DNA from: Anaerolineaceae bacterium
Lineage (GTDB): Bacteria > Chloroflexota > Anaerolineae > Anaerolineales > Villigracilaceae
NCBI GenBank assembly: GCA_009885525.1
Contig: VFKN01000033.1
Location: 1 to 44,173 of the forward strand
DNA: 44,173 bases
Reading direction: 5' to 3'
The notes below the pieces were generated by a model. The model was given only the letters and a program-made list of their open reading frames with translations. It did not search any database and was not told where the DNA came from. Shown here piece by piece: positions 9,832 to 41,470 of the stretch (position 1 is its first letter; each line of letters begins with the position of its first letter). The translations under genes were made by a program, and so were the position numbers.

Positions 9832-11571
9832 TTGATCCAAAAAAATGAAGTTTTATTGAAGCATAACAACGAGTGGCTTTATTTCACAAACCCGCACCAT
9901 ATTATAAGCGCAGCAAAGGTGGAAGATGTACGCGGCGCGTTGCAGGCAGTGGAGAATCTCGTCAACGAAAAAAACTGGCACGCGGCAGGATTTGTCAGCT
10001 ATGAAGCCGCGCCTGCATTTGACAAGGCGCTGCGCGTCATTGAGGCAGAGAATTTTCCGCTGTTATGGTTTGGGTTGTATTCCGCGCCAAAGACCTCCGA
10101 GGTTTTTAAAAACCTCGGAGGTCTGCCGACATTAACCTGGCAGCCAGGCGTTGAGCGTGATGTGTACAACGCCGCAATTGAAAAAGTAAAAGAAAATATC
10201 GCGCTGGGAAAAACATATCAGGTCAATTACACCATGCGTTTGAATTCGGCATTTGAGATGGAGGCATGGGATTTATTCACTCACCTCGCGCAAGGCCAAA
10301 ACAAATATGCGGCATATCTCGACACAGGTCAATATGCAATCTGCTCCGCGTCGCCTGAATTATTTTTTTCATTGGACGGGGAAACAATCACAAGCCGCCC
10401 GATGAAGGGCACAGTCAAGCGCGGACGCACGACGCTGGAAGATAAAGAAAAAGCGGAATGGCTGCATCGCTCGATCAAAAACCGCGCCGAGAATGTGATG
10501 ATCGTGGATATGGTTCGCAACGATATTGGGCGCATCGCCGAGATCGGCAGCGTGCACGTACCTGAATTGTTTACCGTTGAAAAATATCCCACGCTTTTCC
10601 AAATGACATCCAGCGTGCAGGCGAAGACAAAAACCGGTATCACAGAAATATTCGACGCGCTGTTTCCGTGCGCATCCATTACGGGCGCGCCAAAAGTCAG
10701 CACCATGAAGATCATCGCAGAGTTGGAAACGACGCCGCGCAAAATTTACACGGGCAGTATCGGATACATCGCACCGAATCGTCAGGCGCAATTTAATGTG
10801 GCCATTCGCACCGCGATCATTGACCGGGAAAATAAAACCGCCGAATACGGAGTTGGCGGCGGCATCGTCTGGGACTCGACCAGCGCGGATGAATACAGCG
10901 AAGCCCTGCTCAAAGCGCGTGTGCTGACAGAATTTCCGCAAGAGTTTTCACTAATCGAAACTTTATTATGGACTACCAAAGATAAATATTTTCTGCGCGA
11001 GAAACACATTGCCCGAATGCAGGATTCCGCTGATTATTTTAATTTTCCATTTTCAAGGGAAAGATTTGAAACTCACCTCGAACAGCTGGCAAAAGATTTT
11101 AATTGCCCGCAAAGAGTGAGAGTTACGCTGGATAAATTTGGTGAGTTCAAAGCGCAAGTGACAGTCTACTCACAAGTGACTATCACCTCGTTAAAAGTTT
11201 GCCTTGCAGAAAAACCAGTCAACTCAAATAATGTATTTCTCTTTCACAAAACCACACAGCGCGGAATGTATCCATCCATCCAAGGCTATGATGATGTGCT
11301 TTTGTATAACGAAAATGACGAAATAACCGAATTCACTATTGGAAATGTGGTTGTTGAAATGGATGGCGCATTGTTTACTCCGCCCGTTTCATGCGGACTT
11401 TTGGCAGGCACATTCAGATCGCATTTATTGGAAACAGGCCAAATCAAAGAACGCATTATTTATAAAAACGAACTGGAACAATGCACAAAAATATTTTTGA
11501 TCAACTCGGTGCGAAAATGGGTGGATGTAAAGTTAAATACTTACCTTACGCACCCAAGCGTGATTCCCTGA
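9832..11571 (+). CDS. pabB-pabC: aminodeoxychorismate synthase component I fused to aminodeoxychorismate lyase
   Basis: Bifunctional enzyme for p-aminobenzoate, the folate precursor. The 579-residue protein has a PabB chorismate-binding domain (about 1-375), with the QVNYT motif, RPMKGT (Lys in the position typical of PabB rather than TrpE), MIVDMVRNDIGR and PCASITGAPK, then a PabC/class IV aminotransferase domain (about 380-570) with the PLP-lysine candidate in FLFHKTT and the EFTIGNVV segment. The start is a TTG behind GAGGAA; nearby ATG codons are out of frame. Two oddities: a 34-bp perfect palindrome is embedded in frame at residues 87-98, and the last residues run into a dispersed repeat, so the C-terminus (THPSVIP) is probably repeat-derived. 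Confidence 0.92.
   Translation: MIQKNEVLLKHNNEWLYFTNPHHIISAAKVEDVRGALQAVENLVNEKNWHAAGFVSYEAAPAFDKALRVIEAENFPLLWFGLYSAPKTSEVFKNLGGLPTLTWQPGVERDVYNAAIEKVKENIALGKTYQVNYTMRLNSAFEMEAWDLFTHLAQGQNKYAAYLDTGQYAICSASPELFFSLDGETITSRPMKGTVKRGRTTLEDKEKAEWLHRSIKNRAENVMIVDMVRNDIGRIAEIGSVHVPELFTVEKYPTLFQMTSSVQAKTKTGITEIFDALFPCASITGAPKVSTMKIIAELETTPRKIYTGSIGYIAPNRQAQFNVAIRTAIIDRENKTAEYGVGGGIVWDSTSADEYSEALLKARVLTEFPQEFSLIETLLWTTKDKYFLREKHIARMQDSADYFNFPFSRERFETHLEQLAKDFNCPQRVRVTLDKFGEFKAQVTVYSQVTITSLKVCLAEKPVNSNNVFLFHKTTQRGMYPSIQGYDDVLLYNENDEITEFTIGNVVVEMDGALFTPPVSCGLLAGTFRSHLLETGQIKERIIYKNELEQCTKIFLINSVRKWVDVKLNTYLTHPSVIP
10091..10124. repeat. 34-bp perfect palindrome inside pabBC
   Basis: The two 17-nt halves, beginning AGACCTCCGAGG and ending CCTCGGAGGTCT, are exact reverse complements with no spacer. 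It is read in frame as KTSEVFKNLGGL in a surface-linker part of PabB. The same core (CTCGGAGGTCT) forms the hairpin at 42007-42035. Confidence 0.85.
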
Positions 11572-11650
11572 GCGTTAGCGAAGGGTCTCTGAGATAAACG
11601 TAGAGACTCTTCGCTCCGCTCAGAGCGACACTGCGTAAGGTGAGTTAAAT
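11533..11650. repeat. nested inverted repeat overlapping the 3' end of pabBC
   Basis: Outer arms TTAAATACTTACCTTACGCA (left) and TGCGTAAGGTGAGTTAAAT (right) are near-complementary. Inside is a second imperfect pair: CCTGAGCG...GAAGGGTCTCT against AGAGACTCTTCGCTCCGCTCAG. The left outer arm supplies the last codons and stop of pabBC. This has the look of a mobile or dispersed palindromic element. Confidence 0.75.
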
Positions 11651-11696: not shown

Positions 11697-12188
11697 TTAG
11701 ATGTCAGCCAGTGTGATGGAAATATTGATGGTGCCGTCACCCAAATCCACACCTTGAACTGTAATGGCTTTGCCACTCTTATGACCATCAAAGACCATAC
11801 TAAATGTAGTGCCTGCGGTAAATGTCAATTCGGTACGTTCGGTGTAGCCGAGTTTTCCAAACTGGTCACGGTAAAACTTCATGCCTTCATCGAGACTCAA
11901 TTTGGTTTGAAAATTAACAATATCATTGCCCATACTGACCACATTCGCCGCATCATCAGGCAAGGGGAAATCGGTCTTGTCACCGAAGGTGAAGCTGCCA
12001 TCATCAGTTGCCACAGCGGGCATTGTAGGCAGGTCAGTTGCGACAGGCGGCACGGTGGGAATACCACTGCTATCGTCCGATGGAATTAAAGTGGGCGCGC
12101 CGTTATTTCCGCCGCCCATCACTGCCTGACAGGCAAGTGAAGCAAATGCAAGGGCAAGAATCGCAAACAAAATATTATATTTTTTCAT
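11697..12188 (-). CDS. small predicted lipoprotein, unknown function
   Basis: A 163-residue lipoprotein with signal peptide and lipobox FASLAC (Cys 20), a Gly/Asn/Thr/Pro-rich linker to about residue 65, and a domain of about 95 residues containing NVVSMGNDIVNFQTKLSLDEGMKF and alternating beta-strand segments near the end (KAITVQGVDLGDGTINISITL). The second half resembles small alpha/beta domains seen in other predicted lipoproteins, but I recognise no named family. The start has a strong AAGGAG 7 nt upstream. It is flanked by a hairpin terminator downstream and stands alone. Confidence 0.8.
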   Translation of the reverse strand: MKKYNILFAILALAFASLACQAVMGGGNNGAPTLIPSDDSSGIPTVPPVATDLPTMPAVATDDGSFTFGDKTDFPLPDDAANVVSMGNDIVNFQTKLSLDEGMKFYRDQFGKLGYTERTELTFTAGTTFSMVFDGHKSGKAITVQGVDLGDGTINISITLADI

Positions 12189-17985: not shown

Positions 17986-18272
17986 ACAGGTTGCTTCTCC
18001 AAAATAGATTCAATTTTTCGCCGAATGGCTGGTACGGAAATTTTTCCACCGCTACTCAACACTTCATGATTGACCAACACCAATGGCAACTGCGCATCAA
18101 TCGGCATGGGCGGACAATCCGCGTCGAACAGGTCGAAATAACAGACTTCAACTGCGTCGTCGAAATACGCTTTCAACTGACTCGCCGCCCATTTAGCAAC
18201 ATCACGCCATGAATCTTTTACGCCATCCTTACATGCAATCGGCGCGCCGATAATTTGAACGAGAATGCTCAT
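17982..18272 (-). CDS. small thioredoxin-fold-like protein embedded in the ars operon
   Basis: A 96-residue soluble protein of unrecognised family. The predicted order of elements, strand (ILVQIIGA), helix (DSWRDVAKWAASQLKAYF), strand (VEVCYFDLFDA), strand pair (LPLVLVNHEVLSSGGKI) and helix (VPAIRRKIESIL), matches a thioredoxin-like fold and recalls YuzD/DUF1462-type disulfide proteins. It lacks a CXXC; cysteines are at 14, 44 and 53. It overlaps arsA and arsC by 4 nt on each side, so it is tightly coupled to arsenic detoxification. Possible roles are reductant relay for ArsC or arsenite binding; both are inference. Confidence 0.8.
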   Translation of the reverse strand: MSILVQIIGAPIACKDGVKDSWRDVAKWAASQLKAYFDDAVEVCYFDLFDADCPPMPIDAQLPLVLVNHEVLSSGGKISVPAIRRKIESILEKQPV

Positions 18273-20110
18273 GCGTTCACCTTCTCTCCATAAGCCAACG
18301 ACCCCAACTCTGCCAGCATTTCAAGTCCCTTCACTTCATACGGCAGGAGCGGAATTTCCAACACGGGCACATTAAACCGTTGACGAATTTCAGCCAAATA
18401 TTTTTCCTGCATAATGCGTCGCGCCTGTGCGAAGGGCGTCACCTGGTTTGGCGGAATAACAAAATTCGCGACCACCAATCCTGGGTGAATACCCACTGTC
18501 TCCAATTCCTTCGCCGTGCGCCATGCTTCCAAGATCGGCGTGGACTCGGGATACATCACAAACGCAAACGTGCTTTGTGCAGGGTCGCGCATCATCTCGA
18601 TCACCTGACCGAAACGCTGCTTGGCAACATCATCTGCGGCGCTGCCATCCACCGAAGCGAAGACCTTCACATCAATCTGCTGACTCCAATCCATGGGTAG
18701 TTCCAACAGGCGCATCGTGTGACCCGTGGGCGCAGTATCGAACACCACGGCTTCCCAGTCCGCTTGCGAGGCGTAATCAATGAACTGGTCAAACGCCGCC
18801 ATCTCTTCGGTACAAGGCGAGTCGAGTTCTTCTTCCATGACCTTGATCGCGGATTCAGGTCGCCCGCGTTGACTCGCATCATCGAGAATACGCGACTTAT
18901 AAGTTTCCGCCGCAGCTTTCGGATCGATCTTGACCGCCCACAACGAGGGTTGTCCGCTGACAGCCGCAACATCATCGCCCACGGGTTGACCCAACACATC
19001 GCCCAAATGCGCGGCGGGATCGGTTGTCAATAATAAAGTTTTATATCCTTGCTGCGCCAACCAAACCGCAGTGATACACGACGCAACCGTTTTTCCAACT
19101 CCGCCTTTGCCTGCAAAAAATATCGTGCGACGTTGACCATTTTTGGGTTGAATGTTGAAATGTTGGAAAGTTGAAGGTTGACTTTCAGCCTTCAATCCTG
19201 CAACCTGCAACCTTTCAATCTGTAACTCTTCCCCGCCATCAAAGAAAATTTTTGCCACTTGACGTAACCGCGCCGCGCCTTGAATCTCACCCGAAAGCAG
19301 AGTCATGCGCTGGGATGGATACGGCAACTCGATTTCAATCTGCTCCAGATAGCGCGCCTGCATTTCGGAGCGCGCGGCAAATAACGGATTAACTTTTTCA
19401 GAAGCGGGAATAATTCCGTTGATAATTAATCGGTGCGTGTGAATCCCCAGTTTACCCAATTCACCGATGGCGCGTTTCGTTTCGCGGATGGCAATCGCTT
19501 CGGGGTGCAGGACAAAAATAAAAGTGGAAAGTGATTCATCGCGCAGAGTGGCTAACGCGTTTTCGTATTTGTGTTTCGCGTCCTGAATAGCGGCGGCAGG
19601 ACCGATACAAGTCTGTCCGCTGCCGGCGCTGGCCGCGTCAATGGATTGACTCCACTCAGCGGGCAATTCCAGCAAGCGGATCGTGTGCCCCGTGGGCGCA
19701 GTATCAAAGATGATGATGTCAAATTGAGGCGCGGATTCGTCGCGCACGATGAAATCGGTGAAGCGATCAAAAGCGGCGACTTCCGCTGTGCATGGACCGC
19801 TCATCTGCTCTTCCATCACCTGCACCATTTGCGCGGGGAAGGCAGCGCGCAGGGGCGACATGGCGTGGTCAATATATTCTTGCGTGGCAATGTCAGGGTC
19901 GATCTCCATCGCCGATAAATTTGGCACACCAGTAATCGATGTGATTTGATGTCCGATTATCTGTTCAAAAACATCCGCTAAATTTGAAGCAGGGTCAGTG
20001 GTAACGATGAGCGTGCGCTTGCCTTCATCCGCGTAACGGACAGCGTGGGTGCAAGCCATTGATGTTTTGCCTACGCCACCTTTGCCGGAAAAGAAAATAA
20101 ATTGGGTCAT
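18269..20110 (-). CDS. arsA: arsenite-stimulated ATPase ArsA (two-domain)
   Basis: ATPase that energises arsenite efflux and receives arsenite from ArsD. The 613-residue protein is a duplicated ArsA: domain A1 (about 1-295) with P-loop SGKGGVGKTS, and domain A2 (about 327-613) with AGKGGVGKTV. Both have the DTAPTGHT signature. The three metalloid-binding cysteines known from R773 ArsA are matched by Cys 107 (SGPCTAEVAAF), Cys 168 (GQTCIGP) and Cys 433 (SPCTEEMAAF). The linker (about residues 297-325) is unusual at DNA level: it is built from imperfect TTGAA/TTCAA repeats with an overall inverted-repeat layout, so it seems to be repeat-derived. The gene overlaps arsD and the small downstream gene by 4 nt each. 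Confidence 0.97.
   Translation of the reverse strand: MTQFIFFSGKGGVGKTSMACTHAVRYADEGKRTLIVTTDPASNLADVFEQIIGHQITSITGVPNLSAMEIDPDIATQEYIDHAMSPLRAAFPAQMVQVMEEQMSGPCTAEVAAFDRFTDFIVRDESAPQFDIIIFDTAPTGHTIRLLELPAEWSQSIDAASAGSGQTCIGPAAAIQDAKHKYENALATLRDESLSTFIFVLHPEAIAIRETKRAIGELGKLGIHTHRLIINGIIPASEKVNPLFAARSEMQARYLEQIEIELPYPSQRMTLLSGEIQGAARLRQVAKIFFDGGEELQIERLQVAGLKAESQPSTFQHFNIQPKNGQRRTIFFAGKGGVGKTVASCITAVWLAQQGYKTLLLTTDPAAHLGDVLGQPVGDDVAAVSGQPSLWAVKIDPKAAAETYKSRILDDASQRGRPESAIKVMEEELDSPCTEEMAAFDQFIDYASQADWEAVVFDTAPTGHTMRLLELPMDWSQQIDVKVFASVDGSAADDVAKQRFGQVIEMMRDPAQSTFAFVMYPESTPILEAWRTAKELETVGIHPGLVVANFVIPPNQVTPFAQARRIMQEKYLAEIRQRFNVPVLEIPLLPYEVKGLEMLAELGSLAYGEKVNA
19140..19225. repeat. TTGAA-type quasi-palindromic repeat inside arsA linker
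   Basis: The left half is made of GTTGAA-like units (GGTTGAATGTTGAAATG, AAAGTTGAAGGTTG) and the right half of their complements (CCTTCAATCC, AACCTTTCAATC), giving an imperfect inverted repeat of about 86 bp. It is translated without interruption as the flexible linker between the ArsA halves. Confidence 0.65.
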
Positions 20111-21995: not shown

Positions 21996-24098
21996 ATGCC
22001 AAATCATCTTGTAAATCAAAGTTCTCCCTACCTATTACAACACATCAACAACCCTGTGGATTGGTTTCCCTGGGGTGAAGAAGCATTGACAAAAGCCAAA
22101 GCCGAAGACAAGCCAATCTTTCTCAGCATCGGATATTCCGCGTGCCATTGGTGTCATGTCATGGCGCACGAGTCTTTTGAAGACGCCGAAACCGCCGCAT
22201 TCATGAACGAGCATTTCGTCAACATCAAAGTGGATCGCGAAGAACGCCCCGACCTCGACGCCATCTATATGCAAGTCACCGTCGCCATGACAGGTTCAGG
22301 CGGCTGGCCCATGTCTGTTTTTCTCGCGCCCGATCTCAAACCTTTTTACGCTGGCACATACTTCCCGCCCACGCGCAAATACAACATGCCCGCTTTCAAA
22401 GAAATTCTTTCAGGTCTTGCCAACGCGTGGCAAAGCGATAGAAACGAAGTTCTAAAAGTTGGGCAGCAAGTTATCACGCATTTGCTGAGTCAAAACTCCA
22501 CGCAAAAAAGCGACCTGCTTGTGCGCGAACATTACGACGCCATCGCAAAATCAATTACAAATTCTTATGACTGGGGTTATGGCGGCTGGGGCGCTGCGCC
22601 CAAATTTCCACAGGCGATGACCATTGAATTCATGCTCGCGCATGCGGTCACCAACAACCAACCCGAACATCTCAAACTCATCAAGCATTGTCTTGATGCA
22701 ATGTCACGCGGCGGCATGTATGATGTCGTCGGGGGCGGCTTCTCGCGTTACAGCACCGATAATTTTTGGCGTGTGCCGCACTTTGAAAAAATGCTTTACG
22801 ACAACGCCCTGCTTATCCGCGCTTATTTGCACGCGTGGCAAGTCACCAAAGAGCCCGCCTTCAAACGCATTGTCGAAGAAACACTCGAATTCGTCATGCG
22901 CGAAATGAGTCATCCACAAGGCGGATTTTATTCCTCGCTCGATGCCGACTCCGAACACGTTGAGGGCAAATTCTATGTATGGACTTTGGAAGAGATCAGA
23001 GAACATTTAAAAGAGAACAGTGAATTATTTGAAACGGCTTATGGAATCACCGCTGCTGGAAATTGGGAAGGCCGAGTAGTTCTCCAACGCTCGATAGATG
23101 ACTCCTCCCTCGCCGCGCGCTTCAAACTAGACGCGGAGTCAGTGCCTGCAAAGCTGAAAGAATCTCATCTCAAATTATTATCCGCCCGCGGCTCAAGAAT
23201 TCGCCCCGGCACCGATGACAAGATACTCACCGCGTGGAACGGTCTCATGCTCGCCGCCTTCGCCGAAGCCGCGCGCGCTAATGTCATTGCGAGCGATAGT
23301 GAAGCAATCTCCACGCCATCAGGGAGATTGCTTCGTCGGGAAGATCACCCTCCTCGCAATGACATATATCTCCAAGTAGCTACGCGCTCGGCAGAGTTTT
23401 TGCTGAGCGAGATGCGCCCCAACGGTCAACTGCGCCGCTCGTGGCGTGAAGGCAAAGCAACGAGTGAAGTTTTCCTAGAGGATTATGCCGCATTAATTCT
23501 CGGCTTGCTTGAACTGTACCAAACTGATTTCAACGTTAAATGGTTCAAATCCGCGCGTGAATTGGCGGATGAGATGATTCAAAAGTTCAGCGACCCGCAA
23601 GGTGGATTTTTTGACACACCCAATGACGGCGAAACATTACTGATCCGCCCGAAAGATGTTTCTGATAATGCCACGCCATCAGGCAATGCGCTGGCGTGTG
23701 AAGCATTGTTGAAATTAGCAGCGTTCACTGGTGATGAAAAATATCGCAGTCTCGCCGAAGAATCTTTAACACTGGTCAGTGAGTATGCACTCCGCGCGCC
23801 AACTGGATTTGCACGCTGGTTATCGGCGGGAGAGAATGCTTTGGGTCACATGAAACAAATCGTGGTTATGGGTGAGGCGGGCGAGGAAAACTTCGAGCGG
23901 TTGATTCAAATTGTCCGTGCAGAATATAAACCGGGCATGATCATATCCGCATCCCCTTATCCCGCACAAAAAGATGCGCCGGAATTATTGAACGAACGTG
24001 TGTTGTTAAACGGCAAGGCGACGGCCTATGTGTGCGAAGGGTTTGTATGCAAGCAACCTACCACCGACCCGAATGTGTTGATAGAACAGTTACAATAA
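21996..24098 (+). CDS. thioredoxin-domain protein, YyaL/DUF255 family
   Basis: A 700-residue two-part protein: an N-terminal thioredoxin-like domain (about 1-165) with CHWC at residues 50-53 in the invariant block [19 protein letters not shown], and a C-terminal (alpha/alpha)6 glycosidase-like domain. Conserved markers include [75 protein letters not shown] and TPSGNALA. The family (bacterial YyaL, human SPATA20) is widespread but its biochemical role is not settled. It is oddly enlarged by an in-frame palindromic repeat at 23281-23365 (about residues 429-457), in a loop between two helices. It is monocistronic, with a candidate TATAAT at 21964. Confidence 0.93.
23281..23365. repeat. 85-bp palindromic repeat inserted in frame in the YyaL-like gene
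   Basis: Outer arms ATGTCATTGCGAG (23281-23293) and CTCGCAATGACAT (23353-23365) are perfect complements, as are inner arms GAAGCAATCTCC (23301-23312) and GGAGATTGCTTC (23323-23334). A second copy of the right half occurs at about 41411-41455. It is translated as roughly [12 protein letters not shown]...EDHPPRND. Confidence 0.9.
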
Positions 24099-24855: not shown

Positions 24856-26886
24856 ATGACAAGAACCGCATCGCTGCCAGACAACGAAAATTCTAAAAAA
24901 GAGAAAAAGCAGTGGCAGCTAAATTATATAATCTGGCTGGTTTGGATCAGCACATTAGCGGCACACTTGCTACAATTACCCTCAAAAACCGACTTGAACG
25001 CAAAAGGTCCGACAGTTTGGGTAAATATATTCTTTTTAATTCTTCTATATGGATATATCATTTTTGTAGTGTTTGGGACAGGGCGCATTATTTTACGATA
25101 TCTCGACTTGAATCTAAGAAGCCTTGAATTCAATGTGCTTGCTTTTATGTTCGGTTTGGCAGTCTTTTCATGCGCCATATTGGTCATTGGTCTAGCTGGC
25201 TGGCTGAACAACATCGCCATTCTATGCGTTCTTGGCATCGCGGGAATTATTTCCTGCCCGGAATGGGACAAAATCCGACAGGGAGTCCGGCAAAGAATAA
25301 AAAATATCCGCTTTTCACCCGCAAAAAATCTGGATGAAATCATACTGGTAATTGTTCTAGCTTTTCTGTTGCCTGTGCTCTTCCTGAATGCGCTTTCCCC
25401 AGCCTGGGATTACGATGCGCTGCTGTATCACCTGAAAATTCCATCCTTGTTTTTATCGCAGGGAAAGATTTATTTCGACCCCGACGTTTTTCGTTCGACT
25501 TATCCTTTTTTGGGAGAAATGCCATTTCTCGTCGGACTTGTTTTTGGGGTTGCTTCCCTGTCGAAATTGATCAACCTGACTTACGCAATCCTGCTTGCGT
25601 TAAGTGTGTATGCCTTCGGCAAGCGTTTCTTTGGACGTGAAACAGCCGTCATTGCCGTAATGATGTTGGTAGGCGCTCCGTCTATTACCAATTGGGCGAC
25701 CTGGGTCAGCATAGATTTTGCATGGGCAGTCTATGAATTTTGGAGCGTCTACGTTGTGATGTTGTGGCTGGAAAACGGGGGAAAAAATACCAACCAATGG
25801 CTGGCGCTGGCAGGCATCCTCTCTGGGCTGGCAGCCAGTACAAAATATCTTTCACTGGCAGCGATGGGAATCGTCGGCATAATCATTGCCTGGCAATTGC
25901 AGAGTCGCCCGCGTCATTCCGTGGTTGATACAATAAAAAGCCTGGTGGTTTTCGGTTTATCAGCGGGGCTTGTCATGTCGCCGTGGTATATCAAAAATTG
26001 GCTTTGGACTGGCAATCCAATTTATCCTTTGGTCTGGGGGGGTGTGGGCTGGGGGCCGTTAAAGGAACAGGTAATGAGCGATTATCTGCACAGTTTCGGG
26101 GTCGGCAATAACTGGCTGAATTATCTTCTTCTCCCATATAATGTCTACGCCAAACAGAATCGATTTTCAACCAATTTCCTGGAAATAATCCACCCGGCGC
26201 TCTGGCTTGCCTTTGCATATCCTTTTTTGAAGCAATCGAAAAAACAAACTGTTCCGTTGATATATTCAGCATTGTACTGTGCCATCTGGGCGGTCAACTC
26301 ACAAGTAATACGCTTCCTACTTCCAGCATCGGCGTTTCTGGCTTTACTCGCAGGGGATGTGATCCAAAAGTCATTGCCTGTGATAAGAAAAACCATAACA
26401 TACGGACTATTAAGCAGCCTGCTGCTTGCAAGTTTGGTATATCAGATTTTACTTTTTCTAAGTTATGTTCCATATTTTATCGGTCAAAAATCCGCAGCGG
26501 ATATATTGAGATTATCAGTTGATAATTTTCAAATCACCCAGTACATTCAAGAGAATCTCAAACCCGATGAACGCGCCCAATTCCTATGGGACGGGCGCGG
26601 GTATTACTGCGACGCGCGCTGCATCCCCGATGATGAACAATCCACGGCTGTTTTGCTGGCAATAAATTCACCGTCCCCGGAAACACTGGCACACGAGTTA
26701 CACGCGAAAGGAATCACGCATCTGATGATAAGCAGTACCGATGCCCTCTGGTTCATTAATTACCATGATCCCCATCACCTGCATCAACAGGCGTTGGGTT
26801 ATTTCAAAAATATTTTCCTCCCTGCCTGCGGAAATTCCGTTTACAAAGACAGACAAATGGAATTATTCCAAATCACCTGCCCATAA
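24856..26886 (+). CDS. multipass membrane glycosyltransferase (PMT/ArnT-like superfamily)
   Basis: A 676-residue integral membrane protein with a basic N-terminus and about a dozen predicted helices. After the third or fourth helix comes an acidic loop, WDYDALLYHLKIP, resembling the catalytic Asp-containing first loop of GT-C fold enzymes that use polyprenyl-phosphate sugars. The C-terminal 100 residues (DNFQITQYIQENLKPDERAQFLWDG...) form a soluble extracytoplasmic domain. It is a paralog of the gene at 28104-30086, which shares the loop (EDFDALLYHLAVP) and the same layout. It likely glycosylates lipid, protein or exopolysaccharide. The start is weakly supported (AAAGAA before ATG). Confidence 0.8.
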   Translation: MTRTASLPDNENSKKEKKQWQLNYIIWLVWISTLAAHLLQLPSKTDLNAKGPTVWVNIFFLILLYGYIIFVVFGTGRIILRYLDLNLRSLEFNVLAFMFGLAVFSCAILVIGLAGWLNNIAILCVLGIAGIISCPEWDKIRQGVRQRIKNIRFSPAKNLDEIILVIVLAFLLPVLFLNALSPAWDYDALLYHLKIPSLFLSQGKIYFDPDVFRSTYPFLGEMPFLVGLVFGVASLSKLINLTYAILLALSVYAFGKRFFGRETAVIAVMMLVGAPSITNWATWVSIDFAWAVYEFWSVYVVMLWLENGGKNTNQWLALAGILSGLAASTKYLSLAAMGIVGIIIAWQLQSRPRHSVVDTIKSLVVFGLSAGLVMSPWYIKNWLWTGNPIYPLVWGGVGWGPLKEQVMSDYLHSFGVGNNWLNYLLLPYNVYAKQNRFSTNFLEIIHPALWLAFAYPFLKQSKKQTVPLIYSALYCAIWAVNSQVIRFLLPASAFLALLAGDVIQKSLPVIRKTITYGLLSSLLLASLVYQILLFLSYVPYFIGQKSAADILRLSVDNFQITQYIQENLKPDERAQFLWDGRGYYCDARCIPDDEQSTAVLLAINSPSPETLAHELHAKGITHLMISSTDALWFINYHDPHHLHQQALGYFKNIFLPACGNSVYKDRQMELFQITCP

Positions 26887-26902
26887 AGAAGAAGAAATCA
26901 AT

Positions 26903-28093
26903 ATGAAATCCATGGACAAAAATTGGACAAAGCACCTTGACTTTTTCTTTCTAAGTGCCTGGCTGATGATAAGCCTGGGGGCGGCGATTATCTCTCTGAT
27001 CTGGTTTGGGGTGGATTTCCGCGGATATTATGCAGCTGCGCAAGTATTACTCGCGGGCGGGAATCCTTATGACTATCATCAGGTTGCGGAGGTATTACAA
27101 AAAGTCACCGGTGAAATGGGCAATAATCCCTATTATTATCCGCCCTGGTTCGCGTGGTTGTTTATCCCTGTTGCAAAACTTCCTTTTCAGATTGCGCGCT
27201 CGATCTGGATGGCATTTAATTTAATCCTTTGGAATGTCAGTCTTTGGCAATTAGGGAATTCAGTCAACTGGCCCGCTAAAGGCTGGAAGCGTTATGCTTT
27301 TTTTATCCTTGCTACAATATCTTTTGCATGGATAACCTTCAGGTATGAGCAGGCGGGCATCCTTGTTTTTGCCATGCTCGTCGCCGCGCTGCTTTCTCTG
27401 CAAGACCAAAAATGGTTTGCGTCAGGGATATGGCTGGCTCTTTTACTGATTAAGCCGAATATTACACTGGTTGTCGTGCTGGGAATCTGTTTATGGTTGA
27501 TTCGCAAAGGTCAATGGCGCCCTGTTTTGGTAATGGCGGGCACTATTCTGGTTCTGCTGGCAGTCTCCACACTTATTACGCCTGACTGGTTCAGGCCATT
27601 CTCTGAATCCGGATTTGGACGCGGGTTAACCATGGTAATGGACGGGCCGGGGAAAATTGTAGCGGTTAGAATGAACACGACCATGCTGGACTGGATGGCA
27701 AATATGAATGTTCCAGCAAATCTACGTATTATCGTTTATGGAATATCCATTCTCATTGCCGCCGCGGTTTTTTTCCTAATTAGCCTGCGTTCGCAATCGC
27801 TGCTGGAAATAATCAGCCTGTCTTTACTGATCTCCTATGCCATCACCCCTTATGCCTTGCAATATGATTACCCGCCGCTTGTCATCACACTTTTTTGGGC
27901 GCTTTCCCTGCCCATGTCAACGCGGTTAGCAGGGCAAATCAATGTTCTACTTACCGCGTTCATCTTTTTTGCAAGTATGTGGCAGCCATCGATTGCTTTT
28001 AGATACTGGATGGTTGTTGGTTTAATTGCGCTGGTCATCAACACGCTTTATTATTCAAAAATAAGAACAAATTCATTCGCTCCAACAGTATGA
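26903..28093 (+). CDS. GT87/DUF2029-type mannosyltransferase-like membrane protein
   Basis: A 396-residue protein with about nine to ten helices and the DUF2029/GT87 features: VDFRGYYAAAQVLLAGGNPYDYHQ in the first loop (acidic catalytic position), NPYYYPPWFAWLFIPVAKLPF and FRYEQAGILVFAMLV. This family includes mycobacterial polyprenyl-phosphate-mannose-dependent alpha-mannosyltransferases, so a sugar transfer on the outer membrane face is likely. The track starts at 26741 inside the previous gene; the ATG at 26903, after AAGAAGAAG, gives the normal start. It begins 16 nt after the previous stop and ends 10 nt before the next gene, so the three plus-strand genes are one unit. Confidence 0.83.
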   Translation: MKSMDKNWTKHLDFFFLSAWLMISLGAAIISLIWFGVDFRGYYAAAQVLLAGGNPYDYHQVAEVLQKVTGEMGNNPYYYPPWFAWLFIPVAKLPFQIARSIWMAFNLILWNVSLWQLGNSVNWPAKGWKRYAFFILATISFAWITFRYEQAGILVFAMLVAALLSLQDQKWFASGIWLALLLIKPNITLVVVLGICLWLIRKGQWRPVLVMAGTILVLLAVSTLITPDWFRPFSESGFGRGLTMVMDGPGKIVAVRMNTTMLDWMANMNVPANLRIIVYGISILIAAAVFFLISLRSQSLLEIISLSLLISYAITPYALQYDYPPLVITLFWALSLPMSTRLAGQINVLLTAFIFFASMWQPSIAFRYWMVVGLIALVINTLYYSKIRTNSFAPTV

Positions 28094-28103
28094 TCATACA
28101 ACA

Positions 28104-30086
28104 ATGGAAAACGCACTGATGAAAAAAAAATTTCTCTCACTGATACTTACGCTCTGGCTGGCAGCTATCCTGACCATATTTTTTGTCGTCCAAAAGCCGG
28201 ATTTTCTAAATATCCTGGCGGGATTAAAAGATTTCCTTCTCATTATATTTATACCCATTTGGATGGCCTCTTTATCAGCATGTATTGGGGCATATGTATT
28301 ACCAAATGTTGAGCCAGAAGAAAGGTTGATCCTAGGCATTGCATTGGGTTTAGGATTTTTTGGACTGGCAGGTTTTGGGTTTGCAGTTTCGGGCTGGGCA
28401 AACCCGATTATTTTATGTGCCGCTTTATTTGCTCTGACGGGATATTTTATATACACAGGGAAATTAATGCAGGCATGGCAAGATACCGTATGGATTACCA
28501 AAGAAATAAGTGCCAGCACAAACAACGTGGCGTACTGGATACCCGCAAGCGCGGGTATGGCCTTTGCACTCGCCCTTATCATGGGGCTCGCTCCGCCCGT
28601 GGAAGATTTCGATGCGCTTTTATATCATCTTGCCGTCCCGGAGTGGTGGCTGCGGGACGGCGGTTTAATTCCCAGCCAGGCGCTGACCTATTGGTATCCG
28701 CACATTGTTGAAGGAAGTTTTATCATACCCATGGTATTCGGCGTGGATACGGCGGCGCACTTGATCCACTTTCTTTGGTTCGCATTAACCGCGCTCATCG
28801 TATGGCATTGGGCGCGTCAGGCATGGAACGACTCCATCGCATGGGATGCAGTTGCCATTTTATTAACCATGCCGTCGCTGCTGTGGCTGGCGAGTTGGGC
28901 ATACACAGATTACGCATTAACTTTTTCAGGCATCGCCGCCTTATATTCAATATGGAAATGGCGCGGCACAGAAAATAAAAAATGGATCATGATTGGCGGC
29001 ATCATGGCTGGTCTGGCAATGGGCATGAAATACACCAGCTTTGTCATCCCATTGGCTGGCATGGCGCTGCTCGCAATTTGGGAAAAGGGAAATTTGCAGC
29101 GGATTAAGAATGTGATTCTTTTTTCACTCGCGGCGGCTTGGGTCGCATCTCCGTGGTACATCCGCAACTGGGCGTGGATGGGAAATCCCGTTTATCCCTT
29201 TATATTCGGCGGGCGTTTTTGGGACTCGTTTCTCGCTCAGAAATTTTCGGGAGTGGGTTCAGGAATCGGCTTCGATATCGGCGCGCTGCTGCTGCTCCCG
29301 TTGACTGCCACTCTCGGCACGCAGGACGCAAATTTTTTCGATGGGCGCTTTGGCCCGTTCTTTCTAATCCTTTTTCCGATAGCATTATGGGCGCATTGGC
29401 AAAATGATCAAAAAAAAGACGGGCAGCAACAGGCGCTGTTGGCAATTTATTTACTAAGCCTGGCTGGGGTCGTTATTTGGACATTTGGAGTAATGAACAG
29501 TAATAAGTTATTTCAAACCCGCTACCTTTTCCCCGCGCTTATCCCCTTCACAATTCCCCTTGCCATTGGGCTGAACGCGCTGCACAAATTGGACACCCCT
29601 TACCTGAAAATCAGTTTTATATTTCGAACGATGCTGGCGCTTGTCGTATTTGTAAACCTATTTAATTTCAGTTTATTCACCCTCGTCCGCAACCCAATCA
29701 GCGCGGCAATTGGAACGACCCCGCAGAAAATCTATATGGAAAAACAACAGCCGGGTTACGCAAATGCATTGGAGTTAGTAAAAAAAGTTCCGAACAATGC
29801 AAGGATTTATTTTCTGTTTGAACCGCGCAGTTATGGCATGAAAGCATACGCCGAACCTGACATCATAAACGCCCACTTTCTGCACGATCTGTGGCTTTAT
29901 GGAACTCCAGAAAAAACCGTTGCAGCCTGGAAAGAACAGGGCTACACCCACGTCCTGATCTCAAGGAGAGGAGCAAAATTCATACTTAAAAATAATGAAA
30001 ACATACTGCTCACACAAATGGAAAGATTGTTAATAAAAATGGGTACAACAGAACATCAAGATTACGATCTATACAAGATCCCTTGA
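28104..30086 (+). CDS. second multipass membrane glycosyltransferase (paralog of 24856-26886)
   Basis: A 660-residue GT-C-fold-like protein with the catalytic-loop motif EDFDALLYHLAVP after the early helices and a C-terminal soluble domain starting KQQPGYANALELVKKVPNN. The order of helices, the DALLYH motif, and a matched SPWYIRNWAWMGNPVYPF segment (compare MSPWYIKNWLWTGNPIYPL upstream) show it is a paralog of the first gene. An alternative ATG lies 15 nt downstream (MKKKFLS). A short IR (ATACCCGC/GCGGGTAT) at 28539-28558 sits in frame and may be repeat-derived. Substrate is unknown. Confidence 0.8.
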   Translation: MENALMKKKFLSLILTLWLAAILTIFFVVQKPDFLNILAGLKDFLLIIFIPIWMASLSACIGAYVLPNVEPEERLILGIALGLGFFGLAGFGFAVSGWANPIILCAALFALTGYFIYTGKLMQAWQDTVWITKEISASTNNVAYWIPASAGMAFALALIMGLAPPVEDFDALLYHLAVPEWWLRDGGLIPSQALTYWYPHIVEGSFIIPMVFGVDTAAHLIHFLWFALTALIVWHWARQAWNDSIAWDAVAILLTMPSLLWLASWAYTDYALTFSGIAALYSIWKWRGTENKKWIMIGGIMAGLAMGMKYTSFVIPLAGMALLAIWEKGNLQRIKNVILFSLAAAWVASPWYIRNWAWMGNPVYPFIFGGRFWDSFLAQKFSGVGSGIGFDIGALLLLPLTATLGTQDANFFDGRFGPFFLILFPIALWAHWQNDQKKDGQQQALLAIYLLSLAGVVIWTFGVMNSNKLFQTRYLFPALIPFTIPLAIGLNALHKLDTPYLKISFIFRTMLALVVFVNLFNFSLFTLVRNPISAAIGTTPQKIYMEKQQPGYANALELVKKVPNNARIYFLFEPRSYGMKAYAEPDIINAHFLHDLWLYGTPEKTVAAWKEQGYTHVLISRRGAKFILKNNENILLTQMERLLIKMGTTEHQDYDLYKIP

Positions 30087-30091
30087 TAAAA

Positions 30092-30300
30092 CTTACGCCA
30101 CCACCGCATCGATCACGATCGCGAGGAAGATGAACATCAAATACATGCTCGACCACTTGTACATCACTCACGCGCCACGCGGCGTAAAGTAAAAGCCCGC
30201 CCAACACCAGCACAAAAAACCGGGTAAATTACGCCAGCCTTTTCGTAATCCTTCATGCGGGCAATTGCCAACGCTCCGAAGCGCTGATGTTCATCTTGTT
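30092..30300 (-). pseudogene. decayed second copy of the ctaB 3' end
   Basis: DNA and peptide fragments match the 3' part of the intact ctaAB gene at 31499-32815: the 5' part reads FGALAIARMKDYEKAGV (intact: FWALAIVRMKDYEKAGV), and the end matches the stretch CACCACCGCATC...GAGGAAGATGAACAT near the intact stop, with an internal deletion (30170-30175) and a larger one around 30226. Frame shifts and stops break it. It is in the same orientation as the intact gene, with the glycosyltransferase gene 30253-31476 between the two copies and overlapping this one by about 48 nt. Confidence 0.85.
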
Positions 30301-31476
30301 TGCGCGCAGGTATAAAACACACCCGATCACAACTGTGACAATGATCAATGAAATATTCCCGGATCGCCCATACATCGCAATCGCTACAGTTGGAGTAAGA
30401 TAACAAACTGTAATAAGAATCCTCCCTGCCATGCCTTCAGTTCTTACAAGAACTGAAAATGGGATCAGCAGCAAGATAAAATCATAGTTATACAAATACG
30501 GACTAGATAACAAAACAGCCAGTAAGCCCACACTTAACAAGAAATCCGGGCGGAGTATAAAAACTTTACGAACAGAAATAAACACAATACCGATGACCAT
30601 AAATATCGGGATCGCGACCCACGCTGCCTGCAAAAGAGAAGGGGCGTTAAATAGCCAACGCGCTAAAAAAACGGGCAGGCTTGAGCATTGCAAGCAGGAT
30701 ACGATATGATTTTGTGTATGATATGCGAACAATGATCGCGGGTAATTGACCAGCCAGAAAGAATCCGCGGCAAAACTTATCAAAAACAGAACCGCGCCGG
30801 AGATAAAGATCGCTCGCAGCATCCGTTTTGCAAAATCAGTTTTAATGTAAATTAAATAAGCCAGCATCAAAAGGAAGATTAACGCACCTACATGCGGTTT
30901 GATCATAACGAGCCATGCACCTGCTGCGCCCAGCGAAATAACCTCCTGCTTACGGAGTGAATATATAAGCATACTAACACCAAGCAGAATTGGAAAATCA
31001 TATTGTCCGACGGCAAGTGTCCCCAAAACAGGAAGAAAAAGTAAGACAAGGGGGAAAGACCAAAGTCTGGCTCGCGGCGGCCATTCATCCGTCAGCAGCC
31101 AGATTGACGCGAAAAGCATCATAATGTTCAACTCCAACCAGAAGGTCATGGATACATTCATGGGGAGGAGACCAAGATAAAGCGTGCCCAGCGCCAGCCA
31201 AGGCATATATGGGAAAGGAATAACGAAAGAAATTTCCACAGGCATGTTCATAAAATTCGAGATCATGCGCACCTGGCTGGAGTAGTCATAAAGCGCAACA
31301 CCATTCAAGATACCTTTATTTGCAAAATACAATACTCTAAAATCCAAATACGGCGAAATTGGAAGGCGCACAAAGAATGCGACAACAAGCATGACACCTA
31401 TAACAACGAAAAAATATAATATTTTTTGAAAGAGATGGAAAAGAATGTTTTTTTTCATCAAAGAATTGAATATCAC
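30253..31476 (-). CDS. GT87/DUF2029-like membrane glycosyltransferase
   Basis: A 407-residue membrane protein with about ten helices. Family features are YLDFRVLYFANKGILNGVALYDYSSQ (acidic first loop), FPYMPWLALGTLYLG, VGQYDFPILLGVSMLIYSLRKQE and MIKPHVGAL, the last resembling the conserved KPH of DUF2029 enzymes. The start could be GTG at 31476 or ATG at 31458 (MKKNILFHLF); neither has a strong ribosome site. Its last ten residues (ISASERWQLPA) are read from decayed ctaB DNA in another frame, so the natural C-terminus may have been replaced on joining. It is oriented opposite to the three glycosyltransferases to its left. Confidence 0.78.
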   Translation of the reverse strand: MIFNSLMKKNILFHLFQKILYFFVVIGVMLVVAFFVRLPISPYLDFRVLYFANKGILNGVALYDYSSQVRMISNFMNMPVEISFVIPFPYMPWLALGTLYLGLLPMNVSMTFWLELNIMMLFASIWLLTDEWPPRARLWSFPLVLLFLPVLGTLAVGQYDFPILLGVSMLIYSLRKQEVISLGAAGAWLVMIKPHVGALIFLLMLAYLIYIKTDFAKRMLRAIFISGAVLFLISFAADSFWLVNYPRSLFAYHTQNHIVSCLQCSSLPVFLARWLFNAPSLLQAAWVAIPIFMVIGIVFISVRKVFILRPDFLLSVGLLAVLLSSPYLYNYDFILLLIPFSVLVRTEGMAGRILITVCYLTPTVAIAMYGRSGNISLIIVTVVIGCVLYLRANKMNISASERWQLPA

Positions 31477-31498
31477 TTTCTAATAACAGACGATCTTC

Positions 31499-32815
31499 CT
31501 ATGTCACCACCGCATCAATTACAATCGCGAGGAAGATGAACATTAGATACATGCTCGACCATTTGTACATCATCCACGCAGGTTTATTGCCGCCAATTGT
31601 AAAGACGCGCCACGCGGCATAAAGCAAAAGTCCGCCCAAAACAATTGATGAGATCAGATACACCATCCCTGTCAAATTGAACAGCGGGAGCAGCAACGTG
31701 ACTGCGATCAGCGCAATCGTGTAGATCAAAATCTGCTTGCGCGTCTCTTGCTCGCCGCGCACAACGGGCAGCATCGGCACACCCGCCTTTTCGTAATCTT
31801 TCATGCGCACAATCGCCAGCGCCCAGAAATGCGGGGGTGTCCACATAAACACGATTGCAAAGAGAATCCACGCGGTGAGACCGAGGTTATTTGTCGCGGC
31901 CGCCCAGCCCACCATCGGAGGAATCGCGCCTGCGCCGCCGCCGATCACAATATTTTGCACAGTCGCTTTCTTTAACCATACGCTGTAAAAGAACACGTAA
32001 TAAAAAATTCCCGCAAGCGAGAGAAGCGCAGCCAAAAGGTTAACCATTCCAGCCATTACATAATAACTGGTCAAACACAACGCCAGCCCAAACGACAAAC
32101 CTTCAGCAGCGGTTAATCTTCCATCTGCGAGAGGACGTTTCGCTGTGCGCACCATATTCTTATCCAGTTCGCGGTCAATGTATTGATTCAACGCGCTTGA
32201 GCCGCCCGCTGCCAACGCGCCGCCGAGTAAAGTCCACATGGTTAATACCGGGGCTGGCCACGCCTTACTTCCGATCACCAACCCGCCGTATGTAGTAATG
32301 AGCAGCAACACAACGATCAAAGGTTTGGAAAGCGCAAAGAAATCCTTGAAGCGCTGGCGCGTGCTGAAAACTTCGGGCGCGTTATCTACTTTAATCAAAG
32401 CACCGGATGTAAAAGTTAACATTGCAAGCGCAATCCATAAAGAGAACGCGGTTAGCAAATGCAAAACAGTAATATGCGGCTGCGGATTGGCCACACGCAG
32501 CGCGCCGATAAATGCCTGCCCCAAAAATAAAACAGTCATCACAGTCGTTAAAGGCAAGATCACGCTGCTCTCACGTTGTTCCCGCCATGCCTTACGAAAT
32601 ATCCATAAGACCAACAACATCGCAATCCCTACCAGCAATTGATGACTCAATTGCAGCCAGCCCAAGGGCGCGCTTGGCATACACACGGGCCAGCCCACGC
32701 ACAAAGCGGATGCGCCTGTCAGCGTTGCGTAACGTCCAACAACCGTTAAAATAAACATCACAACGAACAAAGCCAGCATTAAACGCGCAAACGATGACTT
32801 GAGCGAATATTTCAT
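31499..32815 (-). CDS. ctaA-ctaB: heme A synthase (half)-protoheme IX farnesyltransferase fusion
   Basis: A 438-residue fusion for heme O/heme A production. Residues 1-145 resemble one four-helix half of CtaA/COX15 with two cysteines (Cys 39 and 45 in LCVGWPVC) and heme-ligand-type histidines in LSHQLLVG (His 58) and VLHLLTAF (His 119). Residues 157-438 are CtaB, the UbiA-type farnesyltransferase, with NQYIDRELDKNMVRTAKRPLADGR and MKDYEKAGVPMLP. CtaA proper is an eight-helix duplicated enzyme, so the N-terminal part is only half. The gene overlaps surf1 by 4 nt (ATGA). It is the last of the assembly operon. Confidence 0.9.
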   Translation of the reverse strand: MKYSLKSSFARLMLALFVVMFILTVVGRYATLTGASALCVGWPVCMPSAPLGWLQLSHQLLVGIAMLLVLWIFRKAWREQRESSVILPLTTVMTVLFLGQAFIGALRVANPQPHITVLHLLTAFSLWIALAMLTFTSGALIKVDNAPEVFSTRQRFKDFFALSKPLIVVLLLITTYGGLVIGSKAWPAPVLTMWTLLGGALAAGGSSALNQYIDRELDKNMVRTAKRPLADGRLTAAEGLSFGLALCLTSYYVMAGMVNLLAALLSLAGIFYYVFFYSVWLKKATVQNIVIGGGAGAIPPMVGWAAATNNLGLTAWILFAIVFMWTPPHFWALAIVRMKDYEKAGVPMLPVVRGEQETRKQILIYTIALIAVTLLLPLFNLTGMVYLISSIVLGGLLLYAAWRVFTIGGNKPAWMMYKWSSMYLMFIFLAIVIDAVVT

Positions 32816-33567
32816 TCTTTATTCTCCACAAATTGATTTCTAAGTTGCTTTCTTAAATAGAACGGGTATCCAAAAAACAGGATCGCCGCAAAAGTAAACC
32901 ATTGTAACGCATACCCAAAATGAGAACCTTCGGTCAGATCTACTTCGGGCTGGTATGGGATGGGCGGCGCGACATCCAGTGCATCCATGTTCGGTTGAAT
33001 AAAAACCGGTAAAACGGGATAAGATAATTGAGCCGCGATTCCTTCCACGCGAATAGAATTCCAAAACTCGAGTCGCGTCTGCCCAGGAGCAAGCGCATCT
33101 GGATTCCCACCGATCTCAACGTCATTGCCGAGTCTAATCTGCCCCGTGATTTTTACCGCACCTGCCACATCGTATTGATGCCAATCGGCAGGCGATTTAT
33201 TTCCAGCAGCGGGGATAAATCCGCGGTCAACAAGAATCGCTCCGTGGTCGAATCGCAGCGGCGTTACGAGATGAAATCCATATTCGCTGTTGAGGTATTG
33301 ATTCCGCAGGGCAACTTGATTCGCGAAGTCGTATTCTCCAACAACTTGAACCATATGCCACTCCATTTTGGAAATGTCTTTCGGCTGTTCAAGATTCAAA
33401 TCAAAAGCAGGCATGGCGCGCATGGTAATCACCTGCGTATTTGCAATACGGCGCTGGGCTAATCGATCGAGCTGCCAGATGCCAAGTCGAATACAAAACG
33501 CGCTGCCGGCAAGGACAAGCAGGGTCGTCAAGATCCATGCGCGGCTGAACATTTTAAGCAGGAGCAT
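32812..33567 (-). CDS. SURF1-family cytochrome oxidase assembly factor
   Basis: Membrane protein of about 251 residues with the SURF1 pattern: one N-terminal helix (LGIWQLDRLAQRR just after), a periplasmic domain with VVGEYDFANQVALRNQY, VTPLRFDHGAILVDRGFIPA and HFGYALQWFTFAAIL at the second helix. SURF1 helps insert or deliver heme a during oxidase assembly. The track start at 33651 is too far upstream; starts at 33567 (MLLLKMF) or 33552 (MFSRAW) are plausible, and I use 33567. It overlaps the preceding gene by 14 nt and ctaAB by 4 nt. Confidence 0.9.
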   Translation of the reverse strand: MLLLKMFSRAWILTTLLVLAGSAFCIRLGIWQLDRLAQRRIANTQVITMRAMPAFDLNLEQPKDISKMEWHMVQVVGEYDFANQVALRNQYLNSEYGFHLVTPLRFDHGAILVDRGFIPAAGNKSPADWHQYDVAGAVKITGQIRLGNDVEIGGNPDALAPGQTRLEFWNSIRVEGIAAQLSYPVLPVFIQPNMDALDVAPPIPYQPEVDLTEGSHFGYALQWFTFAAILFFGYPFYLRKQLRNQFVENKE

Positions 33568-34057
33568 TTTTCTTCTTCTCTTTGGATGGAATGACAACGC
33601 TATAAATAGCCAGCAATATCCCCATCGGCATGCCTGAATATAAAATGCCATACAAACGCGTGCTTAAAGTAAGCGGCTCATGCACATCAAGGCCAAAGTA
33701 TTTTCCCGTCTGAAAGGAACACTCATACGCATATGATTGTTCAGAATCAAGATTCAGGCTTGCAGATGCCCCGGCAGGAATCCACAGCGGACCAAGTTGG
33801 TGGTCTTGCATGTCTTGATTAATGACAAGCAATTTATCACCAACCACAAAGGTCATGTTATCAGGCAGGGACGGAGGCTGTTCGCCGCGCGCGATACGTT
33901 TTGCTGTACCGGCGGGAATAACCAATTCAACAATCTTAGGTGCGCGCGCAGTTTCACGCAAAAAATAAAATGTGGCTTCATTGAGAATAACGCCAAGTAC
34001 AAGACCGATAGCCAATGAAATCAGAATTCTTTTTACAACAAACGAGGAAGTGAGCAT
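33554..34057 (-). CDS. membrane-anchored cupredoxin-like protein in the oxidase assembly operon
   Basis: A 167-residue protein with an N-terminal helix (about 8-30), an extracytoplasmic domain of about 100 residues and a C-terminal helix (about 133-152). The domain reads like a cupredoxin: GDKLLVINQDMQDHQLGPLW with a His (86) in the expected copper-site strand, then YAYECSFQTGKYFGLDV, a Cys (113) in the CXXXX...G pattern, but without the usual downstream His and Met in their normal positions. It could bind copper with altered ligands or act as a structural partner. It lies between sco and surf1, gap 12 nt from sco. No family name is certain. Confidence 0.7.
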   Translation of the reverse strand: MLTSSFVVKRILISLAIGLVLGVILNEATFYFLRETARAPKIVELVIPAGTAKRIARGEQPPSLPDNMTFVVGDKLLVINQDMQDHQLGPLWIPAGASASLNLDSEQSYAYECSFQTGKYFGLDVHEPLTLSTRLYGILYSGMPMGILLAIYSVVIPSKEKKKNAPA

Positions 34058-34069
34058 GGGAGTTTCTTT

Positions 34070-34675
34070 CTATTTGAGCAGCAATTTAATATCGTGGACA
34101 ATATCGTCGACGGGTGTTTGAAACCCATACGAGAGGCGCAGGTTGCCATCGATATCAATAAGCGTGATGCGCACTGTATGATCAACACTGTAACTTGATT
34201 CAGAATTCGCAGCAGGGACGATTTGACGAAATACTCCGTAATCGCTCCAAACCTTTTCCAAATTGTCGATGGAACCGCTCAAGCCGATAAAGTTTGAATT
34301 GAAGTGATTAACGTATGCTTGAACTTTTTCGGGCGTATCACGTTCGGGGTCAACGGTGATAAAAACAACTTTAACGGAGTCAGCAGCACTACCAAGATCA
34401 TCCGTGACAAGTTTTAGTTCCGCCATCGTGGTGGGGCAAACATCAGGACAGGCCGTGTAACCAAAAAAGAGCAAAACAATTTTTCCTTTTTGATCTGCAA
34501 GATGAAAATCTTTTCCATCGGATTGCGTCAATTGAATTGGGGACGCAGACGGATAAGGTTCACCGTAAGCTGTGCCGCGAAACGAAACGGGCTGAGACAA
34601 GAAAAAGGTCACCGCCGCAATAATGGCAATGACCAAAAGCGCGCTGATACCAACTTGAAAAGTCTTTTTATTCAT
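34070..34675 (-). CDS. sco: SCO1/SenC-type copper chaperone
   Basis: Thioredoxin-fold protein of about 201 residues, membrane-anchored by an N-terminal helix, that delivers copper to the CuA site of cytochrome oxidase. The copper motif CPDVCPTT and the distal histidine in YSVDHTVR are present, as are FITVDPERDTPE and LLFFGYTACPDVCP. The start at 34675 (MNKKTF) is preferred because AAAGGA precedes it; the track start at 34705 lies in a terminator region. First gene of the assembly operon sco-cupredoxin-like-surf1-ctaAB. Confidence 0.95.
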   Translation of the reverse strand: MNKKTFQVGISALLVIAIIAAVTFFLSQPVSFRGTAYGEPYPSASPIQLTQSDGKDFHLADQKGKIVLLFFGYTACPDVCPTTMAELKLVTDDLGSAADSVKVVFITVDPERDTPEKVQAYVNHFNSNFIGLSGSIDNLEKVWSDYGVFRQIVPAANSESSYSVDHTVRITLIDIDGNLRLSYGFQTPVDDIVHDIKLLLK

Positions 34676-34703
34676 ATTTCCTTTACATGTAATTTTGCTG
34701 CAC

Positions 34704-34744
34704 AAAAAATCGAGGCGACCCTATATAAGAGCCGCCTCGATTTT
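34704..34744 (-). terminator. intrinsic terminator of the cta structural operon
   Basis: Stem AAAATCGAGGCG / CGCCTCGATTTT with a loop of about 16 nt and a T run on the minus strand. It lies 30 nt after the ctaF/E stop and directly before sco, so the assembly operon probably has its own start. Confidence 0.85.
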
Positions 34745-41337: not shown

Positions 41338-41470
41338 GTAACTACTCGGCCCCCGTAAGCATGTCGCTGCGAGGCGCTCTTGTTCTTGCCGAAGCAGTCA
41401 CCTCATCAAGAAGATTGCTTCGTCGGAAAGAGCAACAGCCCTCCTCGCAATGACATGGCTGAGTAGTTAC
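41338..41470. repeat. 133-bp nested palindromic repeat upstream of the SET gene
   Basis: Outer arms GTAACTACTC (41338-41347) and GAGTAGTTAC (41461-41470) are perfect complements. Inside is a second copy of the family found in the YyaL-like gene: AGATTGCTTCGTCGG followed by CCCTCCTCGCAATGACAT on the right, and CATGTCGCTGCGAGG on the left. It sits 42 nt before the SET gene start and may carry or disrupt its promoter. Confidence 0.85.

Follow-up and report, generated by a model that had tools for sequence, protein, structure and literature searches.

The window, i.e. the whole stretch of 44,173 nucleotides that was analysed, belongs to an uncultured Chloroflexota bacterium (Anaerolineales), the assembly of which comprises 4.1 Mb in 206 contigs and is 89% complete. 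It contains an intact gene for heme O synthase, ctaB, and a decayed copy of the 3' end of the same gene, the two being separated by a gene for a membrane glycosyltransferase, GT87b. The features of the locus are as follows.

24856-26886, + strand: PMTa, a PMT_2-type glycosyltransferase, beyond PMTb
26741-28093, + strand: GT87a, a GT87-type glycosyltransferase, beyond PMTb
28104-30086, + strand: PMTb, a PMT_2-type glycosyltransferase, tail to tail with the decayed ctaB tail across a 6-bp gap; its orthologue abuts ctaB in the related locus L043
30093-30284, - strand: decayed ctaB 3' end, consisting of three blocks with two deletions and one frameshift; the stop codon is kept at 30093-30095
30253-31476, - strand: GT87b, a GT87-type membrane glycosyltransferase, the inserted gene; its last ~11-12 codons come from the decayed ctaB tail
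30285-30305, - strand: approximate boundary at which GT87b meets the decayed ctaB tail (ctaB codon ~330), as judged from the end of ctaB homology
31499-32815, - strand: ctaB, intact heme O synthase (UbiA/CtaB prenyltransferase family), the N-terminal half of which is CtaA-like; the duplication concerns its 3' ~310 bp
32812-33651, - strand: SURF1 (cytochrome oxidase assembly), the upstream neighbour of ctaB, kept across the genus

Comparison of the decayed copy with intact ctaB by self-blastn of the window yields three collinear matches on the same strand with 82-89% identity, i.e. 31505-31579 with 30099-30173 (89.3%, E 1e-21), 31605-31642 with 30170-30207 (89.5%, E 5e-7) and 31779-31828 with 30231-30280 (82%, E 2e-6). 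Relative to ctaB, the decayed tail has lost ~120 bp, with the joint at a GCTGGCGT-like repeat, and another ~29 bp, with the joint at a GCGT repeat (both exact joints were read from the alignment), and it carries a one-base frameshift. An earlier note on this DNA had described a broken ctaB 3' copy at 30092-30300, in the same orientation as the intact gene at 31499-32815, and had claimed that the C-terminus of the intervening gene comes from this copy. The three collinear matches bear out the former, and the latter holds as well, since the last ~11-12 codons of GT87b are ctaB tail read out of frame; the coordinates given in that note agree with self-blastn and alignment to within a few bases.

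CtaA-CtaB fusion proteins occur in Chloroflexi (PMC8239418), and ctaB of the window is likewise fused to a CtaA-like N-terminal part, which differs from these fusions in that it corresponds to only about half a CtaA (32177-32662). The genome also has a gene for a full-length CtaA at another place (G000:C155), and in some relatives (loci L060, L063, L065 and L070) a separate stretch resembling the CtaA half lies upstream.

Family, composition and relatives of GT87b

GT87b is a member of the GT87 family (PF09594, 38.7 bits at a Pfam gathering cut-off of 25) and, going by the family alone, presumably functions as a polyprenyl-phosphate-sugar-dependent glycosyltransferase. It is essentially full length, because what is missing of its own C-terminal part is a short variable tail; its homologues, too, stop a few residues after the last membrane helix. 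The GC content of GT87b, 0.428, corresponds to the 3rd percentile among 191 genes sampled from the genome; PMTa, GT87a and PMTb lie at the 8th-12th percentile. As a sign of import this shift is only suggestive, and it was dropped as proof.

Relatives of GT87b with 36-48% amino acid identity are present in 34 of the 151 other genomes of the family and, wherever the position of ctaB is also known, they do not lie beside it. The GT87 tree places GT87b outside the clades sampled, at the end of a long branch, and the nearest GT87 homologue is only 48% identical. The arrangement expected of a donor, with ctaB directly before a GT87b-like gene, was found in none of 152 family genomes or 396 class genomes. 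The scanned genes of 24856-34705 gave no match to integrase-, transposase- or phage-type genes, and the window contains no tRNA that could be the target of an integrase-borne island, so that what was scanned offers no sign of an island carried by an integrase or a transposase.

The empty site in a related genome

The closest available relative is represented by L043 (JAQTWR010000179.1, identical with locus G540), the ctaB of which is 88% identical to that of the window at the amino acid level. There, SURF1-ctaB is followed tail to tail by the PMTb orthologue (71% identity at the nucleotide level) with a gap of 4 bp, the ctaB stop lying at 2217 and the end of PMTb at 2222, and this junction holds neither a GT87 gene nor a second ctaB tail. 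Moreover, the intergenic stretch between PMTb and the decayed tail in the window is homologous to the one between PMTb and ctaB in L043, both being short. As L043 shows an empty site at the same position, the decayed tail occupies the ancestral ctaB/PMT junction, and the insert thus consists of GT87b and one ctaB tail.

In another genome, G022, a PMTb orthologue (61% amino acid identity) is found in a glycosyltransferase cluster beside ctaB, 2.7 kb away from it. Since orthologues of PMTb adjoin ctaB in L043 and lie near it in G022, PMTb predates the insertion. A single import of the block 24856-31476, which the earlier note had suggested may have arrived together, was rejected on this ground; the stretch 24856-28093 lies on the far side of the older PMTb gene.

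Divergence of the two ctaB tails

The intact and the decayed tail share 51 codons, 18 of which differ, 15 of these synonymously; a simulation of neutral change predicts ~14 non-synonymous codons, with a minimum of 6 in 20,000 trials. The synonymous codon difference amounts to 0.36 between the intact and the decayed tail; measured against L043, it is 0.33 for the intact and 0.28 for the decayed tail, i.e. the two tails within one genome are as far apart as ctaB genes of different species. The predominance of synonymous changes together with this between-species distance argues that both tails were still coding during their divergence, and therefore for import from a relative and against local duplication followed by decay.

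Three-taxon parsimony assigns 8 synonymous and 7 non-synonymous changes to the decayed branch, and 11 and 0, respectively, to the intact tail. The argument from selection is weaker if these seven changes count as decay, which they need not be, because three or four of them are outgroup states. A maximum likelihood tree of the tails groups the decayed copy with the intact tail of the window and that of L043 (98% support), with the order of the three not settled, and the AU test rejects no branching order. The identity profile between the window and L043 along ctaB has no visible breakpoint, and none of tree, identity profile and GC3 singles out one tail as foreign; its position favours the decayed tail as the native copy.

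Variability behind ctaB

Across the genus, 0-4 variable genes lie between ctaB and a sigma-70 gene. Many of these encode membrane proteins, including PMT and GT87 glycosyltransferases, and some encode unannotated, membrane-like proteins. The sigma gene directly follows ctaB in G001; it was not found in the window. A scan for recurrence covered 84 distinct ctaB loci of the family with 534 kb of downstream sequence and detected ctaB tail remnants in two of them only, the window and L050 (JACPVF010000009.1). The L050 remnants, at 11517-11629 and 11985-12016, lie in series behind the intact ctaB, with a terminator-like hairpin after the first and two similar AT-rich stretches behind the remnants.

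Among 710 control genes in ctaB loci (ctaB copies included), few other repeated 3' ends were seen, namely a tandem paralogue pair in L055/L251 and one match in L241, the repeat in L138 being intergenic. The enrichment at ctaB is thus suggestive only, and so is a recurrence of insertion at the ctaB tail. One might go further and regard the ctaB 3' end as a recurrent port of entry, at which successive single-crossover or one-sided events, with the conserved ctaB tail as their anchor, renew the set of membrane glycosyltransferases between ctaB and the sigma-70 gene in this family without any mobile element, the remnants in the window and in L050 being the scars; we consider this general scheme decidedly doubtful.

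Discussion

Based on these findings we regard the locus as a real and well-supported recombination scar, left when one glycosyltransferase gene was imported at ctaB. The insert probably stems from the DNA of a related species and was acquired by recombination. The earlier note had proposed that a segment carrying the GT87 gene recombined in at ctaB and left a partial duplicate, and both the empty site in L043 and the between-species divergence of the copies speak for this proposal. As to the course of events, it appears likely on balance that a GT87 fragment from a related species entered ctaB as a circle by a single crossover, with the duplicate tail being left behind.

The ancestral order was SURF1-ctaB> <PMTb, as still present in L043. 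A related species of the Anaerolineales would have supplied a fragment in which the 3' part of ctaB was followed by a GT87 gene, and this fragment probably recombined with the recipient ctaB, the most likely route being that the ends of the fragment were joined into a circle and that one crossover took place within the ctaB homology. This would result in a complete hybrid ctaB with GT87b 22 bp behind it, where co-transcription with ctaB is possible, and in a second ctaB 3' end, adjoining PMTb and beginning near codon 330, where the ligation joint would lie. In the redundant tail two segments flanked by short direct repeats were later deleted and a frameshift arose, changes that can be seen in the sequence, and GT87b would have joined a locus already variable in membrane glycosyltransferases. 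The donor, the circle and the crossover point are inferred. A single crossover with such a circle produces the footprint seen here, with one copy of ctaB complete and, on the far side of the insert, a partial direct duplication that starts inside the gene at its joint with the insert, although circular and linear intermediates would look alike in the sequence. The two tails differ in the way of donor and recipient alleles rather than of a gene and a neutrally evolving spare, a distinction that is weaker on three-taxon polarisation.

A similar footprint is known from E. coli, where duplications of 109-950 bp of the lacZ end were attributed to circularised DNA integrating by one crossover (PMC3240628), and the ~0.3 kb partial duplication flanking the insert in the window matches it. 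In this Campbell-type integration of re-circularised linear DNA, as in the window, an incomplete direct repeat of the end of the homologous gene flanks the insert, and a single homologous region is enough; the window differs in that it represents a natural event between diverged species, known from its footprint alone, and in that the duplicate has decayed.

Import of a linear fragment by canonical homology-facilitated illegitimate recombination, i.e. homologous exchange in ctaB combined with illegitimate joining at codon ~330, would require the same starting material and the same anchor as the circle. This process, for which 3-10 bp of microhomology at the illegitimate joint is the criterion, has been described in Acinetobacter, S. 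pneumoniae and P. stutzeri (PMC3240628), has also been invoked for the orphan gene arrays of Vibrio (PMC5361080), and resembles the event in the window in that foreign DNA is anchored by homology on one side, with no mobile element involved. However, the recipient usually loses about as much DNA in this process as is inserted (PMC3240628), whereas the window shows a duplication of recipient DNA and no loss, the PMTb/ctaB junction being retained as compared to L043, which leaves the linear route a slim chance. A chimera of two co-occurring strains in a metagenome bin has to be considered as well, the window being known only from an assembly of 206 contigs at 89% completeness. Yet a simple misjoin is disfavoured because it would leave the second tail intact, while this tail has two internal deletions and a frameshift and connects GT87b with PMTb through the ancestral intergenic stretch; such an artefact is thus very improbable.

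The duplication may, in principle, also have arisen within the genome. A partial tandem duplication of the ctaB 3' end in situ, with GT87b coming separately between the copies and the spare decaying neutrally, finds a parallel in L050, the two remnants of which (spacing 329 and 387 bp) lie in series behind intact ctaB and imply that tail repeats can arise without an obvious glycosyltransferase insert. Nevertheless, a neutral spare should differ mostly at non-synonymous positions, whereas the copies differ mainly synonymously and as much as two species do, and two events would be required where one is enough, so that this course is already disfavoured and we consider it unlikely. The synonymous-dominated divergence and the unsettled three-way tree could also be accounted for by an old full-length paralogue, i.e. 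by two functional ctaB genes that once flanked GT87b, the copy on the PMTb side having recently decayed to its 3' end. But two ctaB genes of this type are found in no family genome examined, second matches being ~30% UbiA relatives elsewhere, the single ctaB of L043 touches both SURF1 and PMTb, and the fragment begins where GT87b ends, all of which makes an old paralogue quite unlikely.

Import at ctaB also invites comparison with the T6SS/Rhs orphan immunity arrays of Vibrio, for which a displacement model with orphan 3' ends was proposed (PMC5361080). In both cases a new gene follows a conserved anchor, and the older 3' end survives as an orphan further downstream, but in the window the orphan is the decaying tail of a conserved housekeeping gene, and nothing points to toxin/immunity selection. 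Events of this kind are already known, and the window is a clean example and no new system. It provides, in an uncultured group, a trace of recombination between species that is unusually easy to read, in which the empty site, the insert, the duplicated anchor and early decay of the spare copy are all visible and in which a synonymous-site test tells import apart from local duplication. It also shows that the region behind ctaB varies in membrane glycosyltransferases within the family, and is otherwise a case of ordinary genome change.

Several repeats were noted elsewhere in the window. A palindromic repeat of ~85 bp (23285-23372) lies in frame inside a gene for a thioredoxin-domain (YyaL-like) protein (21996-24098); it has 45 matches in the genome, with a relative at 41366-41456, and is similar to the protein-coding palindromic elements known, for instance, from Rickettsia. 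An ArsA-like ATPase composed of two tandem halves is encoded at 18269-20110 and contains a 62-bp internal repeat (18681-18742/19647-19708, 82% identity in self-blastn). Finally, self-blastn revealed a perfect self-complementary match of 34 bp at 10091-10124, inside the ORF 9832-11571.
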